From positions 1 through 46,819 of the forward strand of contig JABDKH010000058.1 in the NCBI GenBank assembly GCA_013002345.1: a stretch of DNA of 46,819 nucleotides. Direction: 5' to 3'. Positions 8,594 through 19,137 of this stretch are shown here, one piece after another. Below the pieces are notes generated by a model. It was not told the DNA's origin. It saw nothing but the letters and a program-made list of their open reading frames with translations, and did not search any database. Made by a program: the position numbers and the translations under genes. Source of the DNA: Rhodothermales bacterium. GTDB lineage: Bacteria; Bacteroidota; Rhodothermia; Rhodothermales; JABDKH01. Each line of letters begins with the position of its first letter. The stretch's first letter is position 1.

Positions 8594-8666
8594 TGATCCC
8601 GCCTGGGTTCGAACCAGGGACCCTCTGATTAAAAGTCAGATGCTCTGCCAACTGAGCTACGGGATC
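8594..8666 (-). tRNA. tRNA-Lys (anticodon TTT)
   Basis: A 73-base cloverleaf reads on the minus strand. The acceptor arm is GATCCCG with CGGGATC and discriminator A; D-arm GCTC/GAGC; anticodon arm TCTGA with loop CTTTTAA and TCAGA, giving anticodon TTT (Lys). The T-arm is CCTGG TTCGAAC CCAGG. The 3' CCA is not encoded. A small inverted repeat, CCCCTA-AAA-TAGGGG, sits just upstream (about 8672-8686). The 3' end faces the integrase remnant, typical of a tRNA used as an integration site. Confidence 0.97.
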
Positions 8667-9935: not shown

Positions 9936-10076
9936 GGGCCGGCGCGACCGTCTACAAAACCGGAATCCCGTCACCGAACCAGAGATTCCCCGTCAGCCGG
10001 AAGCGTGCGCGGGTCGTAGCATATCCGGCCAGCCAGCCCGGCTGATAGCGGTTGTCACACAGCTGAGGATATGACC

Positions 10077-11101: not shown

Positions 11102-11225
11102 ACATTGATGCAGGACAGATGGGACAATCCGTTATCCGATAGCTGAATGACGCGCTTTTCGACGCAGTCGGATGATATCCTGAGCCACGGACGATCAATG
11201 AACCATCATCTTCGTGGAGGTTGTC

Positions 11226-12395
11226 ATGTTGCACAGATCTTTTTTGAAGCTAGTCCCCATCGTGCCGGTTGTTCTTGTGCTGATGGTTGGCGCGGCCTGT
11301 GAGGACGCCGGTGTGATCACGGGCGATTCCGCGTCGTCGTCCATCGGCGCTGATTTACAGGCCAAGAACTCGGCCGTTGCGCGGCAGGGGCCGGGCGCCC
11401 TGACCGTGATGACTCGAAACGTCTACATAGGTGCCGGCGTCGACAACATTATTGCCGAACCGGATCCGAACAAGGTGCCGTTTCTCGTCGCTGAAGCGTT
11501 CCAGACGTTTATCGCGACGAACTTCGATGAGCGCGCAGAGGCGTTTGTGCGAGAGATCGCCGCGTACCAGCCACATCTTGTCGGACTTCAAGAGATAACA
11601 CGTATAAGATTGCAGTCACCGGGTGACCGTGTCGTCGGTGGTACGACGCCGGCCGAGGACGTATTCCTGGACCACATGGATGTGCTGATGAGCAAGCTGG
11701 CCGCTCATGGGCTCGACTACGTGGTGGCCGGCATCGTTCAGAATCTCGATGTAGAATTGCCGATGATCGTGAGCCTGGATCCGCTGGCTTTCGATGACGT
11801 GCGCGTCACCGATTTCGACGTGCTGCTGGCACGCGGCGACGTCGGACTGTCCAACGTTCAGGAGGTGAACTTCGCAGTGGGTATGCCCGTTCCGGGACTC
11901 GGAACGCTTGGACGTGGATACGTCGCGGCAGACGCGACGGTCAATGGCCGAACCTATCGCGTCGCCACGTCACATTTCGAGTCTGAAGTGCAGGAGATCC
12001 GAATGGCGCAGGCGCAGGAGCTCATGAGCGATCTTCAGTCGTCTCCGTATCCGGTGGTTGTGATGGGCGACCTGAACACGGAGGCGCCAGAAGGAGCGAC
12101 GTACGGAATGTTTATGGAAGACGATTTCATAGACACCTGGGATCGAAACCAGCTTCCACACGCCGGACCCGGGTTCACGTGCTGCCATCACGGAAGCCTG
12201 ATCGGTACGAGCCGCATACCCGACAAGAGGATCGACCTTGTTCTCTTCCGATCGACGAAGACGAAGCACGGAAATGGCGGCCTTGGTTCCGTCTTTGTGG
12301 AAGTGGTCGGTGAGTCGCCGGCAGATAGAACGCAATCGGGCATGTGGGCGTCCGACCACGACGGCGTAGTGGCGTCGCTGCGCGTTCCGAACTAA
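11226..12395 (+). CDS. Exported lipoprotein of the endonuclease/exonuclease/phosphatase fold
   Basis: A 389-residue metal-dependent phosphoesterase-fold protein. The ATG at 11226 follows GGAGG by 5 bases; a GTG 12 bases upstream lies inside that ribosome site and is not used. A signal peptide ends in a lipobox, VGAAC (C25), so the protein is probably anchored outside the cytoplasm. The fold's motifs are all present: TRNVYIG (N65), GLQE (E123), TSHFES (H250), GDLNTE (D282, N284), DKRIDLVL and SDHD (D377, H378). These match the family's metal and phosphate-binding residues, so it should be active. The substrate could be extracellular DNA, a phospholipid or another phosphodiester. Two cysteines and two histidines in a row (CCHH, 319-322) are unusual. 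Confidence 0.88.
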   Translation: MLHRSFLKLVPIVPVVLVLMVGAACEDAGVITGDSASSSIGADLQAKNSAVARQGPGALTVMTRNVYIGAGVDNIIAEPDPNKVPFLVAEAFQTFIATNFDERAEAFVREIAAYQPHLVGLQEITRIRLQSPGDRVVGGTTPAEDVFLDHMDVLMSKLAAHGLDYVVAGIVQNLDVELPMIVSLDPLAFDDVRVTDFDVLLARGDVGLSNVQEVNFAVGMPVPGLGTLGRGYVAADATVNGRTYRVATSHFESEVQEIRMAQAQELMSDLQSSPYPVVVMGDLNTEAPEGATYGMFMEDDFIDTWDRNQLPHAGPGFTCCHHGSLIGTSRIPDKRIDLVLFRSTKTKHGNGGLGSVFVEVVGESPADRTQSGMWASDHDGVVASLRVPN

Positions 12396-12410: not shown

Positions 12411-12445
12411 TGACGGGCCCACGAAAGCCGTCACGGGGCCCGTCA
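12411..12445 (+). promoter_or_regulatory. Hairpin 1 of a tandem pair with a repeated 10-bp motif
   Basis: TGACGGGCCC (12411-12420) and GGGCCCGTCA (12436-12445) form a perfect 10-bp stem with a 15-base loop, 15 bases after the stop codon of the EEP-fold gene. No T run follows, so it is not a standard intrinsic terminator. Confidence 0.55.
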
Positions 12446-12457
12446 ATGACACAAATT

Positions 12458-12490
12458 GGGTCCGTCACTGTATCTTTGAGTGACGGACCC
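12458..12490 (+). promoter_or_regulatory. Hairpin 2 of the tandem pair, just upstream of the hybrid kinase start
   Basis: GGGTCCGTCACT (12458-12469) and AGTGACGGACCC (12479-12490) form a perfect 12-bp stem with a 9-base loop (GTATCTTTG). Its outer 10 bases match hairpin 1 at 9 of 10 positions (GGGYCCGTCA). It ends 16 bases before the ATG at 12507 and covers a possible GTG start at 12480. Switching pairings between the two hairpins is possible. Confidence 0.6.
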
Positions 12491-12506
12491 TCACGGGGTG
12501 TCTCTG

Positions 12507-14867
12507 ATGGACGTCTCTACTGCACTTCTTTCGCTTCGCTCGCGTCTTGTCGGGCCTGCCTCCTGGGAAGCCGACGAGGGCTTCAAGGACGTTCTGCGCA
12601 TCATCAACCGGCGCGGAATGCTGGCGGCCGGCACGTTGACGGTTATTGCCGTCGCTCTGTATCTCGCCGTCAACGCGCTCGTGCTCGGCAAACAACCGGT
12701 GTGGGTCTATCCCAGCGATCCGGTCATTGCCGCGACAAGCATGATGTTGTGGGACAAACTGATGGTGTTGGCTTCCGGTCTTCTTTTTCTCTTTCTGTAT
12801 CGAGCGGACGCGGATCTGCGATGGGGACGTTTCGGAGCCGCAGCGGTTGTAATTGTGCTGTCAGTCGCAAGTGTTTTTGACGACGTCAGCGGCACGGGGA
12901 ATACTGTGACGTCCGCGGTCTATCCCACACTATTCCTGCTCGTGGCATCCGGCACGATTCCGTTTCGCCCTTTGCAAATGCTGTTTGTAGCGGTCGGCAC
13001 GTTCGGAGTTGTCACGGTCTCGGAGATCGTTTTCCCGGTGATGCTTGGTGTGTCCGTCACCGGAATGCCGGTGGAACAGGTTCCATTCATGGTCATCGCG
13101 GCCGCCATGCTGACGGGAATCACGATGCTCCTGTACGGCACGCGTTACGACCAGTATCGAGCGCGTGCAGCCGCGCAGCGTCTGACCTCGGAGCTCGAGC
13201 GCCATTCTCACGAACTCGAGGAAGCAAAAGCCCGTACCGAGGAACAGGCGGCCAGGCTGGTCGAAGTGGAGCACATGAAAGACCGTTTTTTCGCCAACAT
13301 CAGTCATGAATTTCGAACGCCGCTTACGTTGATCATGGGCCCCGTCGACGATGCGCTCGAAGGGGCTTACGGCGACGTTCACCCTCCTCTGGCGAGCATG
13401 CTAACAAGCGTCCGGAATAGCTCCCGGCGTTTACTCGGACTCGTCAACGACCTGCTCGACCTGTCAAAGGTCGACGCGGGTGCGATACGGCTTCGTATCG
13501 AAGAGCACGACCTGGTGTCTTTCCTGAAACCAGTCGTGCACAACTTCACAGATGTGGCGGGACGCCGGAAGATCATCTTGACCTGTGAGAGCACTGAAGA
13601 TGAACTGCCGGCGAGCTTCGACCCGGGCGCGTTGGAGAAAGTCATCTACAATCTCGTTTCGAACGCGATAAAATTCGCCCCCGATGGAGGAGCCGTCAAG
13701 GTCAGTCTGGACGCGCTACAGACGCGCAGGGGAAGGCAGGCGCGGGTGACCGTCAAGGACAACGGACCGGGGATTACTCGAGAGCAGGTCAGCCTGATCT
13801 GGGATCGCTTCCATCGGATTGAGAGGGATGGATCGTCAGAGGGAACGGGAATCGGGCTCGCGCTCGTCAAAGAGCTCGTCGAACTGCATGGTGGCGAAGT
13901 GGCCGTCAAGAGCGATGTCGGATTCGGAAGCGAGTTCACCGTCGATCTGCCACTGGCTTCGTACCCGGACGTCCGCAGAGCCGCCGACTCTACCTATGAC
14001 GTGGCGCCCGCGTCGGATCCGGATGAGATTGGATCATTTTCATATTCGGACGACTCTCCCGAAGCCTCTGCTACGGCGCCGATCGTTCTCGTTGTAGACA
14101 ACGACGACGAAATCCGGGCGTATGTGAGGAGACATCTGAAAGGTTTGTACCGGGTGCGAGAAGCGGAAGATGGTCTTCAGGCGCTGGAGTCTATTCACGA
14201 AGAACGTCCGGCACTGATCATCAGTGACGTGATGATGCCACGCATGGACGGTTTCGAGCTGTGTCGCAAGGTGAAGGGTGACGCGGAGTTCGCCGAGATT
14301 CCTGTCGTCTTGCTTACGGCGCGAGCGGACGAGGCCGGTCAGATGGAAGGTTTGCATGCGGGCGCTGACGACTATATCCCGAAGCCGTTTTCCTCGGCGG
14401 CACTTGTCGCGAGAGTCGAGAATCTTATCGAGATGCGGCGCATACTGCGTGTCCGTTACATGGAGGGCGTTGTCGAGCCGAGTCCGATCGACGTGCCGTC
14501 GGTTGATCAGTCGTTCATGGAGCGGGTCAAGAACACCGTCGAGGAGCACATAGGCGATACGCATTTTGGCGTTGACTGGCTCGCGGATGAGGTCGGATTG
14601 AGTGCGCGCCAGTTGCAGCGGCGAATTCGGGGTATCACGCGTCTGACGGCTGCGGGGTACATCCGGCTGATGCGTTTGAAGCGTGCGGCGCAGCTGTTCA
14701 GTCGGCAGGCCGGTAACGTGTCGGAGGTTGCATACGCCGTTGGCTACGGAGATGCCGCGTATTTCTCCCGTCTGTTCAAACAGACGTTCGGTGTACTCCC
14801 CTCGGAGTTTATCGAGCAAGAAGCGTTACGAGACCGCGAGCAGCCTGATACGACTCCCGTCGCCTGA
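12507..14867 (+). CDS. Hybrid sensor histidine kinase / response regulator with AraC-type DNA-binding domain
   Basis: A 786-residue one-protein two-component system. I chose the ATG at 12507, preceded by GGGGTG, over a GTG at 12480 that lies inside a hairpin. The order is about six membrane segments (residues 38-211), a coiled coil (about 219-259), then a HisKA domain with the phospho-accepting H267 in SHEFRTPL. The ATPase domain follows, with the N-box around N386 and DNGPG. A receiver domain has D574 (SDVMMP) and K626 (PKPF). An AraC/HTH_18 domain closes the chain (about 670-770, with LADEVGLSARQLQRR and VAYAVGYGDAAYFSRLFKQ). Unlike the SusCD-linked hybrid systems of Bacteroides it has no large periplasmic propeller, so it likely senses through its membrane part. 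Targets may include nearby genes or its own hairpin region. Confidence 0.93.
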   Translation: MDVSTALLSLRSRLVGPASWEADEGFKDVLRIINRRGMLAAGTLTVIAVALYLAVNALVLGKQPVWVYPSDPVIAATSMMLWDKLMVLASGLLFLFLYRADADLRWGRFGAAAVVIVLSVASVFDDVSGTGNTVTSAVYPTLFLLVASGTIPFRPLQMLFVAVGTFGVVTVSEIVFPVMLGVSVTGMPVEQVPFMVIAAAMLTGITMLLYGTRYDQYRARAAAQRLTSELERHSHELEEAKARTEEQAARLVEVEHMKDRFFANISHEFRTPLTLIMGPVDDALEGAYGDVHPPLASMLTSVRNSSRRLLGLVNDLLDLSKVDAGAIRLRIEEHDLVSFLKPVVHNFTDVAGRRKIILTCESTEDELPASFDPGALEKVIYNLVSNAIKFAPDGGAVKVSLDALQTRRGRQARVTVKDNGPGITREQVSLIWDRFHRIERDGSSEGTGIGLALVKELVELHGGEVAVKSDVGFGSEFTVDLPLASYPDVRRAADSTYDVAPASDPDEIGSFSYSDDSPEASATAPIVLVVDNDDEIRAYVRRHLKGLYRVREAEDGLQALESIHEERPALIISDVMMPRMDGFELCRKVKGDAEFAEIPVVLLTARADEAGQMEGLHAGADDYIPKPFSSAALVARVENLIEMRRILRVRYMEGVVEPSPIDVPSVDQSFMERVKNTVEEHIGDTHFGVDWLADEVGLSARQLQRRIRGITRLTAAGYIRLMRLKRAAQLFSRQAGNVSEVAYAVGYGDAAYFSRLFKQTFGVLPSEFIEQEALRDREQPDTTPVA

Positions 14868-14870
14868 GGT

Positions 14871-16160
14871 CTAGAGGAGAAAAACGACTCCGATCGCCGT
14901 GACGAGAGATGCAATGATGCCGGGAAGGATGACCTTTTTTAACCCTGGCGACCCGGCGCTCAGCACAATCGCGCCCTTCACGAGCGTATTGGAGGCGACG
15001 GCAAGGACGATGGCCCGGGCAGCCGTTTGTTCGTCGAGAACGCTCGCGTCGCGGCTGAGCTCGGCCATGGAGAGGGTGATCGCGTCAACGTCGGCAAACC
15101 CCGCGACAACGCTCGACAGGTAAATCCCGGTGTCTCCCAGGTACATGGTCGCCGCCTTGGATATCAACAGAACCACTGCAAAGAGCAATCCGAATCCGAG
15201 CGCCGGACCCAGTTCGAACGGGTTGGTGAAGCGGTCCTCTTCCTCCTGCTTTGCGACCGACTTGCTCCGGTACAAATAGATGCAGTACACCGTGGTCACG
15301 GCCAGTGCCGCGGCCATCGGTATCCAGACGATTCTCAGAAGCGAACGGTTCAACGCCGCCACCTCGACAAGCACGCGCACGAACATCACGCTCCACGAGA
15401 GCAGGATGGCGAGCGCGAACGGCTGATTGAGACCGTTGACCGACCGACTTCTCTGCGAGAAGCTGAGCGTAACCGCCGTGCTGGATGCCAGGCCACCAAG
15501 GATACCCGTCAGGCCCACGCCACGATGGGTACCGACCAGTTTGATCAGGATATATCCCAGAAAGCTGATACCGGAAATGAACACCACCATCAGCCAGATC
15601 TTGTAGGGAACCAGCACGCTCAACGGCTCCGGTCCGTATCCCGTGCGAGGCAGGAGCGGGAGTATGATGATCGTGATTACGGCGAACTGCAGCGTCGCGT
15701 AGACATCTTCCGGCTCCAGTTGCCGAATCAGTGCCCGGGTCTGAAGCTTGAGCGCGAGGAGTACGGTCACGGCGACACCGAGCGCTGCGGCCAGCCTCAG
15801 GTCCCCGAAATAGCAGAGGGCGCCGATCATGACCGTCGTCAGAGCGGCGACCTCGGTCGTGATGCCTCCGCTACCCGACCGGGCCTCGAAGTAGTAGGCG
15901 ACCGTCACGACAAGGCCCGCGGCCAGGATCGCCGCAACAAGGAGGAGCGGACTGCCCATCACGTCCGCCAGCAGTGCGGCTGTGCAACCGAACAGCGCCA
16001 GAAGGGGAAAGGTGCGGGCTCCGGCGAAGAGGCTTTCGCCCTCGTTCTTCTGGTGTTCCGACCAGTGCGCGTACTCGCGCTGAAGCCCTACAAGCAGCCC
16101 GACAGAGATTGCAACCCCGAATCGGTAGAAGAGCTCGATCTGGCTTGTGTCTTCAAACAT
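14871..16160 (-). CDS. MgtC/SapB-family membrane protein with DUF4010
   Basis: A 429-residue polytopic membrane protein. The N-terminal part has the MgtC/SapB signature (about residues 10-150: FGVAISVGLLVGLQREYAHW, later TTEVAALTTVMIGALCYFG). The C-terminal part matches the DUF4010 domain, with further membrane helices and the segment SSVVAGFADVDAITLSMAEL. MgtC proteins are tied to Mg2+ limitation and membrane energetics, but the role of the DUF4010 form is not established. The stop codon is 3 bases from the stop of the convergent hybrid kinase gene. A perfect 9-bp hairpin ends 5 bases before the ATG and there is no clear ribosome site, suggesting translational control. Confidence 0.85.
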   Translation of the reverse strand: MFEDTSQIELFYRFGVAISVGLLVGLQREYAHWSEHQKNEGESLFAGARTFPLLALFGCTAALLADVMGSPLLLVAAILAAGLVVTVAYYFEARSGSGGITTEVAALTTVMIGALCYFGDLRLAAALGVAVTVLLALKLQTRALIRQLEPEDVYATLQFAVITIIILPLLPRTGYGPEPLSVLVPYKIWLMVVFISGISFLGYILIKLVGTHRGVGLTGILGGLASSTAVTLSFSQRSRSVNGLNQPFALAILLSWSVMFVRVLVEVAALNRSLLRIVWIPMAAALAVTTVYCIYLYRSKSVAKQEEEDRFTNPFELGPALGFGLLFAVVLLISKAATMYLGDTGIYLSSVVAGFADVDAITLSMAELSRDASVLDEQTAARAIVLAVASNTLVKGAIVLSAGSPGLKKVILPGIIASLVTAIGVVFLL

Positions 16161-17388: not shown

Positions 17389-17700
17389 TCTTTCTCCGGG
17401 TCATCGAGTGGAAAGGGGCAACGGGTAATTCCGAACATCTGTAAGGAGCGCTTCACGTGTAATATCATCTGTGGGGAATATCCTATTAGTTGTGTAAGGT
17501 ATTGCCCGGCAACACGCGATAAATGACCTTTTTTGCTCTGATTCAAGGGTTGCCGGATGATCTGCTCGGCGGTCCGACTGTCAGGTGAGATGCGGAAGGA
17601 GTGTCGGCGTTGTGAGCCCGCGCGTTTTTTCCGTTCATAAAATGGGGATGAGTTGTCATCCACGGCTCACCGGCACATTTTCATCAAGAATCCAGCACCT
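17389..17700. other. Divergent intergenic region between the T9SS protein and multicopper oxidase genes
   Basis: About 310 bases with no convincing gene, holding promoters for both neighbours. It contains an 8-bp inverted repeat, CCGGCAAC (17506-17513) with GTTGCCGG (17549-17556), spaced by 35 bases. A short hairpin, GGATGA-GTTG-TCATCC (17646-17661), lies 39 bases before the oxidase ATG. The stretch between 17390 and 17530 is AT-richer than its surroundings. No promoter was called with confidence. Confidence 0.5.
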
Positions 17701-19137
17701 ATGTCCAAGAATCGTGACCTCCGCCGCCTGAATCGCCGAGACTTTGTTCGTGTAACCACCGTAGCGGCAGGGGCTGTCGCATCTGGAAGCCTGCTGTCAG
17801 CATGTGCAGACGACAGCCTACTGGTCGATCCAGAAGCCGGCGTCGGGGACGTACTGGCCAAGCGGCGGGCAGTCACGAGAAACCCGCTGAAGATCCCCGA
17901 ACTCATGCAGGGGACGGACCTGACGGTGGCGCCGGCAGTGGTCGATATTGGAGGTGAGGAGATGGTGGAAGCCTGGGCATACAACGGGCAATTTCCGGGT
18001 CCGACGTTTGAGCGCAGGCGGGGCGAGAGCGTGGGTGTGGAAATGGTGAACGGCCTCCAGGACGAGACGATCGTTCACTGGCACGGCATGATAGTGGATC
18101 GCGAGAACGACGGCCACCCCCAGGACGTGGTGGAATCGGGTGAGCACTATGGATATAACTTCGTCGTCAATCAGCGCGCCGCACTGAACTGGTATCACCC
18201 GCATCCGGATATGCTGACCGGTGAGCAGGTCAATAAGGGTCTCGCCGGAGCATTCATCATCCGAGACGACGAGGAGGATTTACTCGGACTTCCGTCGGGT
18301 AAATACGAGGTCCCACTGATCATTCGTGATGCGACGATCCGCAGGGGCCGCATGACGTACCGCGCCCGGAAGAGCGGCTTCTTTGGAAAGACGCCTCTTG
18401 TGAACGGGACGCGTAACCCGAAGCTCGACGTCGACCCGGCAGTCTATCGTTTCAGAGTCCTCAACGGTGCCAACGCACGCCACTTCAATCTATCCCTGAG
18501 CAATGGGCAGAACTTCATTCTGATCGGGAACGACGGGGGTCTGTTACCGATGCGCCACGATCTCGGTCAGATTCTCATGTCACCTGGTGAGCGCATAGAC
18601 ATCCTGGTAGACTTCCGGAACCTCCAGGGGACCTCATTGATGTTGCACGATCTCGAGGATGGCTGGGACCTTCTGGAGTTCAACGTCAACAGTGAGTCGA
18701 ACATCGACTACGCGTTCCCCGAGATCACGACCTCAACGATTACTGAGCTGTCCGAGGCGGATGTCGTCCAAACCCGTGTCTTCAGCTTTGACGGCATGAG
18801 CAAGATCAACGGGCGAGTCTATGGCATGGAAAGAATCGACGAGTACGTCCCGAAGGGTCAGACCGAAAAATGGATCTTTACCACCGGTGGAAGTGCGCCG
18901 CACCCGGTTCATGTGCACGCCGCACCGTTCAAGGTATTGTCGAGAACGGGCGGACGAGGAGAGGTCTTCCCGTGGGAAACGGGCCTGAAGGATACGGTTC
19001 TCCTTGAAGATGGCGAGACCGTCGAGGTTCTGATCCGCTTTGATGAGTTCGCCGGACTATTCCTTCTTCACTGCCACAAGCTGGAGCATGAAGACGCGGG
19101 CATGATGATGAACTTCGAGGTTGTCGACCCGACGTAA
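17701..19137 (+). CDS. Tat-exported multicopper oxidase (probable lipoprotein)
   Basis: A 478-residue multicopper oxidase, which oxidises metals, phenols or similar substrates while reducing oxygen to water. I chose the ATG at 17701 because it gives a compact twin-arginine signal (NRRDFVRV, R12-R13) ending in LLSAC (C35), a possible lipobox; an upstream in-frame start adds 16 unneeded residues. All copper ligands are visible: HWHG (H126, H128), WYHPHPD (H166, H168), HPVHVH, and HCHKLEHEDAGM near the end (H457, C458, H459, H463, with M468 as likely axial type 1 ligand). The sequence is closer to CotA/SufI-like two- or three-domain oxidases than to nitrite reductases. No methionine-rich copper-resistance insert is visible. 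It is divergent from the T9SS-sorted protein gene. Confidence 0.92.
   Translation: MSKNRDLRRLNRRDFVRVTTVAAGAVASGSLLSACADDSLLVDPEAGVGDVLAKRRAVTRNPLKIPELMQGTDLTVAPAVVDIGGEEMVEAWAYNGQFPGPTFERRRGESVGVEMVNGLQDETIVHWHGMIVDRENDGHPQDVVESGEHYGYNFVVNQRAALNWYHPHPDMLTGEQVNKGLAGAFIIRDDEEDLLGLPSGKYEVPLIIRDATIRRGRMTYRARKSGFFGKTPLVNGTRNPKLDVDPAVYRFRVLNGANARHFNLSLSNGQNFILIGNDGGLLPMRHDLGQILMSPGERIDILVDFRNLQGTSLMLHDLEDGWDLLEFNVNSESNIDYAFPEITTSTITELSEADVVQTRVFSFDGMSKINGRVYGMERIDEYVPKGQTEKWIFTTGGSAPHPVHVHAAPFKVLSRTGGRGEVFPWETGLKDTVLLEDGETVEVLIRFDEFAGLFLLHCHKLEHEDAGMMMNFEVVDPT

Follow-up and report, generated by a model that had tools for sequence, protein, structure and literature searches.

Four copies of the 10-bp motif GGGYCCGTCA lie within 80 bases between the stop codon of a nuclease-family gene and the ATG of a hybrid sensor kinase gene, and their arrangement raises the question of whether they are binding sites in the DNA, arms of hairpins in the RNA, or both. 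The window analysed is the whole stretch of 46,819 nucleotides in which they are found. The features at the locus are as follows.

11214..12395, + strand: upstream gene, endonuclease/exonuclease/phosphatase family; its stop codon precedes hairpin 1.
12411..12420, − strand: copy 1, reading GGGCCCGTCA on the − strand; makes up the left arm of hairpin 1.
12428..12433, + strand: extra (fifth) copy of the core CCGTCA, within the loop of hairpin 1.
12436..12448, + strand: copy 2, GGGCCCGTCAATG, first half of a direct repeat with a period of 22 bp; 12436-12445 forms the right arm of hairpin 1.
12458..12470, + strand: copy 3, GGGTCCGTCACTG, which completes the direct repeat and matches copy 2 at 11/13 positions; 12458-12469 is the left arm of hairpin 2.
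12471..12478, + strand: TATCTTTG, within the hairpin 2 loop; matches TAnnTTTG and is no more than a candidate promoter element.
12480..14867, + strand: hybrid sensor kinase (HTCS), longest frame, from GTG 12480; alternative start ATG 12507.
12481..12490, − strand: copy 4, reading GGGTCCGTCA on the − strand; lies in the right arm (12479-12490) of hairpin 2.

All four copies were found where the first-pass annotation had placed them, at 12411, 12436, 12458 and 12481, in the orientation order −, +, +, −. The two perfect stems it had described were also present, one of 10 bp with a 15-nt loop (12411-12420/12436-12445) and one of 12 bp with a 9-nt loop (12458-12469/12479-12490), as were the direct repetition of copies 2 and 3 (period 22) and the gap of 16 bases between the second stem and the ATG at 12507. 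Counted from the final base of the stop codon upstream, hairpin 1 starts 16 bases on. Some shorter repetition is overlaid on this layout: TCACGGGG is present twice, at 12431 and 12491, and CCGTCACGGGG (12428-12438) and CCCTCACGGGG (12488-12498) form a 10/11 direct repeat with a period of 60, which includes the flush TCACG flanks of 12436-12490.

The product of the downstream gene contains the Pfam domains HisKA, HATPase_c, Response_reg and HTH_18/HTH_AraC, all above cut-off, the last being a C-terminal AraC-type HTH at about residues 690-785. On this predicted domain content the gene encodes an HTCS, a membrane hybrid kinase with a receiver and an AraC-type DNA-binding domain. The kinase start is uncertain because the in-frame GTG at 12480 sits inside the second stem; if it is used, hairpin 2 overlaps the start of the gene. 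Among the genes predicted and domain-scanned, no adjacent regulator gene was found besides the HTCS. In contrast to typical HTCS loci, there were no polysaccharide-utilisation genes among the scanned neighbours of the kinase, which include genes for a MgtC/DUF4010 membrane protein (14871-16160) and a multicopper oxidase (17653-19137).

TAnnTTTG is the -7 box of Bacteroidota promoters. It is matched by TATCTTTG, and no TTG was present at the usual distance. Upstream of genes in 587 kb of the genome, TAnnTTTG was found 10 times in the sense and four times in the antisense orientation (shuffle mean 4.9), which is a weak enrichment, and in the first 218 kb it was not enriched (3 versus 1.4 expected). 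A literature search on Rhodothermota promoters gave no direct answer.

In the genome searched (4.10 Mb, 381 contigs), there are 20 exact copies of GGGYCCGTCA, compared with 14 for a reversed control pattern, and four of the 20 fall within these 80 bases. The genome search for further pairs that the first-pass annotation had suggested returned 16 copies elsewhere, none making such a pair. All 16 were examined, on both strands; 12 are inside predicted coding sequence, and the only two with a partner no more than 45 bases away (up to two mismatches) are both coding. When a 112-base query was compared with the genome no other copy was found, the four matches at E≤10 being two at the locus itself and two of 14 bases. 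A dispersed palindromic repeat, MITE or transposon relic was rejected, as there is no second genomic copy. The site is real, unique to this locus within the genome and locally unusual, yet a known kind of thing, and its restriction to one locus is in line with a regulator's private operator. As a separate observation, two identical 33-base stretches (L205, 1501-1533 and 1686-1718; G000:C173) lie 185 bases apart in similar surroundings and are an intergenic tandem duplication.

The most likely function of the four copies, to which we give an even chance, is as an autoregulatory operator for the downstream HTCS gene. The AraC-type domain of the HTCS would bind the four copies, and the kinase would thereby regulate its own transcription. 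A dimer would sit on a single helix face at the central pair (12436-12448 and 12458-12470), and the inverted outer copies (12411 and 12481) may be additional sites. Occupation of the central pair would be likelier to repress than to activate, because a possible promoter element is found at 12471-12478.

In the available part of PMC3878776, the HTCS motifs predicted for Bacteroides thetaiotaomicron are all direct repeats with sites 21 bp apart on average, and one example has two 12-bp sites and a 9-bp spacer. That pattern of two direct sites about 21 bp apart is present here: when extended, copies 2 and 3 become sites of 13 bp that match at 11/13 positions, separated by a 9-bp spacer and at a period of 22, or about two helical turns. 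A direct repeat matching it occurred in a fraction of 0.01 of 150-bp shuffles. A literature search for HTCS autoregulation returned no other HTCS paper. The suggestion in the first-pass annotation of an operator for the AraC domain of the kinase stands in part. The AraC-type domain at the end of the kinase, the direct repeat of copies 2 and 3 and a similar repeat with the same 8-base core in one distant relative all point to it. However, the inverted outer copies, which form perfect inverted pairs, differ from the described HTCS architecture and are unexplained by it, the four sites can also form very stable stems in RNA, for which an operator has no need, and in 16 of 18 relatives even the loosest criterion used picks out no comparable repeat.

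For the comparison with relatives, 36 places were considered, of which 29 had loci and were examined and seven had none. The N-terminal domain of the kinase was matched in 26 of 113 other genomes of the order and in none of five other genomes of the family; no genome from the same genus turned up. The repeat tests used 18 loci from AraC-output relatives that were picked for long frames (one step used 17). In one of these relatives, G032 (locus L158), the kinase is 39 % identical to the window kinase over residues 14-783, and the upstream region contains TGTCCGGTCCTTC N10 TGTCCGGTCCGTC, a direct repeat 12/13 alike with a period of 23. Its second copy ends 57 bases before the ATG, a position similar to that in the window, the core 8-mer GGTCCGTC is identical in the two, and an inverted near-copy is found farther upstream. 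A direct repeat of at least 11/13 that includes the core with up to one mismatch was absent from all 1774 of the 150-base background tiles, giving P ~0.01 over the 18 regions and ~0.017 over the 29; however, we note that the repeat-conservation tests are post hoc, as they were framed once the G032 match had been seen.

A weaker repeat of a related unit, TGTCCGGCCCTTC / TGTCCGACGCCTC (10/13, period 22), was found in relative G054 (L147). By these post hoc tests, a strong repeat with the exact core precedes one of the 18 related kinases (G032), and two of 18 are counted under a loose criterion that admits G054. For the loosest criterion (at least 10/13, one mismatch), also post hoc, P was 0.03 at 250 bp and 0.16 at 150 bp, and 16 of the 18 AraC-output relatives lacked a comparable repeat. 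Five loci tested separately, L156 and L157 (long frames outside the 18) and three others, were all negative. Two further observations concern G032. A pair of GGTCCGTC 15 kb from its kinase gene was dropped as chance, as it is inside a cytochrome-type reading frame, and at L260-L263 (G032:C1:911390-911489) 23-base units run head-to-tail with GGTCCATCTGTATA.

The hairpins, for which the first-pass annotation had looked to conservation in relatives, were not conserved in the 29 loci examined: stems of at least 8 bp were found in the 330 bases upstream in seven of 29, none with related arms, and in the 150 upstream bases a stem better than shuffles was found only at L138, whose frame length does not fit an AraC-output protein.

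Other targets for the putative operator were also sought. Inverted CCGTCA pairs numbered 28 and 25 genome-wide versus 28.5 expected, and a genome-wide operator of this form was rejected, with counts at expectation, most of the examined pairs coding and the rest without a common extension. Direct CCGTCA pairs with a period of 19-25 numbered 19 genome-wide versus ~15 expected, which is no clear excess. By these counts, the motif does not mark a genome-wide regulon. A second direct CCGTCA pair with a period of exactly 22 is located within the window at 9968-9995, in intergenic DNA upstream of an ORF at 10071 that encodes 140 aa and has no match in Pfam. It is possibly a second target of the HTCS regulator, but we treat it only as a lead because ~0.025 such pairs would be expected in the window by chance for one exact period, and 0.18 over the seven periods searched.

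The alternatives to an operator centre on the RNA. The predicted fold of a 112-base stretch has an energy of -53.8 kcal/mol (z = -4.35), and none of 200 shuffles was equally stable. The first-pass annotation had envisaged that arms could swap partners, as in attenuators, and had called for the leader to be folded with alternative structures; arms 1 to 4 would change partners and so switch read-through into the kinase gene. Arms 1 and 3, and arms 2 and 4, are 9/10 complementary. However, forcing these pairings gave -34.9 and -31.9 kcal/mol, respectively, compared with -53.8 kcal/mol for two adjacent hairpins, a gap of 19-22 kcal/mol that leaves a partner-swapping switch without a competing state, and no mutually exclusive fold of comparable stability emerged. 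Hairpin 1 is formed already in every transcript prefix tested, a short outer stem closes both hairpins, and neither stem has a T run after it. Attenuation via arm swapping was rejected on the fold energies, and we regard it as extremely improbable.

The chief rival, unlikely in our judgement but a serious possibility, gives the stems a simpler role in RNA: they would terminate or protect the RNA of the upstream nuclease-family gene at its 3′ end, insulating the kinase gene, whether as a T-less terminator, an exonuclease block or a Rho-assisted end, these forms being judged jointly. The position of hairpin 1, so soon after the stop codon, and a fold far more stable than shuffles favour it. So does the enrichment of long stems between genes: among 18 perfect stems of at least 10 bp in a 587 kb sample (the window and 32 stretches), 12 were in the DNA between predicted genes, which makes up 17 % of the sample. 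The 12-bp stem is joint longest with two others in this survey, and no second pair of the 18 stems lies within 100 bp of each other. Against this role, the stems are followed by ATGACACAAA and TCACGGGGTG, with no T run after either, though long stems with T runs do exist in the genome (L208:3638 and L219:11928, the latter read on the − strand), and a terminator has no need for two hairpins to share the same arms or for a core that recurs in G032. The earlier statement that simple termination is unlikely applies to intrinsic terminators that have a T run and does not extend to a T-less 3′ hairpin. No Rfam match was found at the repeat site, the only match in the window at gathering score being a tRNA (8594-8666). 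Overall, the RNA hairpins look more like a side effect than a switch.

Another dimeric regulator could instead read the inverted pairs, whose half-sites are centred 25 and 23 bp from each other. The inverted arms are perfect in both pairs, but inverted core pairs are not above expectation genome-wide and the HTCS is the sole adjacent regulator gene found, and we consider such a regulator distinctly unlikely. That 12436-12490 is the relic of a small inserted element is very improbable. It has 10-bp ends (9/10) and TCACG flush on either side (12431-12435 and 12491-12495); however, it is only 55 bp long and has no other copy in the genome, and, with several possible end pairs to choose from, a flank match of 5 bases counts for little. 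A broader form of the operator reading is improbable too, namely a compound class of operator in Rhodothermales-like self-regulating HTCS, in which a 22-23 bp direct GGYCCGTC repeat would serve the AraC domain and inverted copies would fold the leader RNA, the sites acting as both DNA and RNA.

If the four copies are an operator of the HTCS gene, they would extend binding-site prediction for HTCS beyond the well-studied gut Bacteroides and beyond polysaccharide loci, and would provide a concrete, testable model of autoregulation. They would also illustrate that operator sites repeated in alternating orientation can pass for an RNA switch.

Among known systems, tandem intergenic hairpins and intrinsic terminators present two G+C-rich stems right after a stop codon. 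The window resembles them in having two G+C-rich stems just past a stop codon, but, unlike intrinsic terminators, its stems have no T run and their arms are identical. AraC-type operators such as araO/araI consist of several half-sites near the regulator's own gene, some of them direct repeats at about two helical turns. The window likewise has several sites by a regulator gene, some directly repeated about two helical turns apart, but two of its four copies are inverted and looping is not in evidence. Compared with the B. thetaiotaomicron HTCS operators, as far as they are described in the available part of PMC3878776, the window repeat differs in preceding the HTCS gene itself, with no polysaccharide genes seen adjoining, and in being flanked by two inverted copies that form perfect stems. 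It is like those predicted operators, as set out in the same part of that source, in the direct repetition of sites (12-16 bp, ~21 bp apart) and in the AraC-type output of a membrane hybrid kinase.
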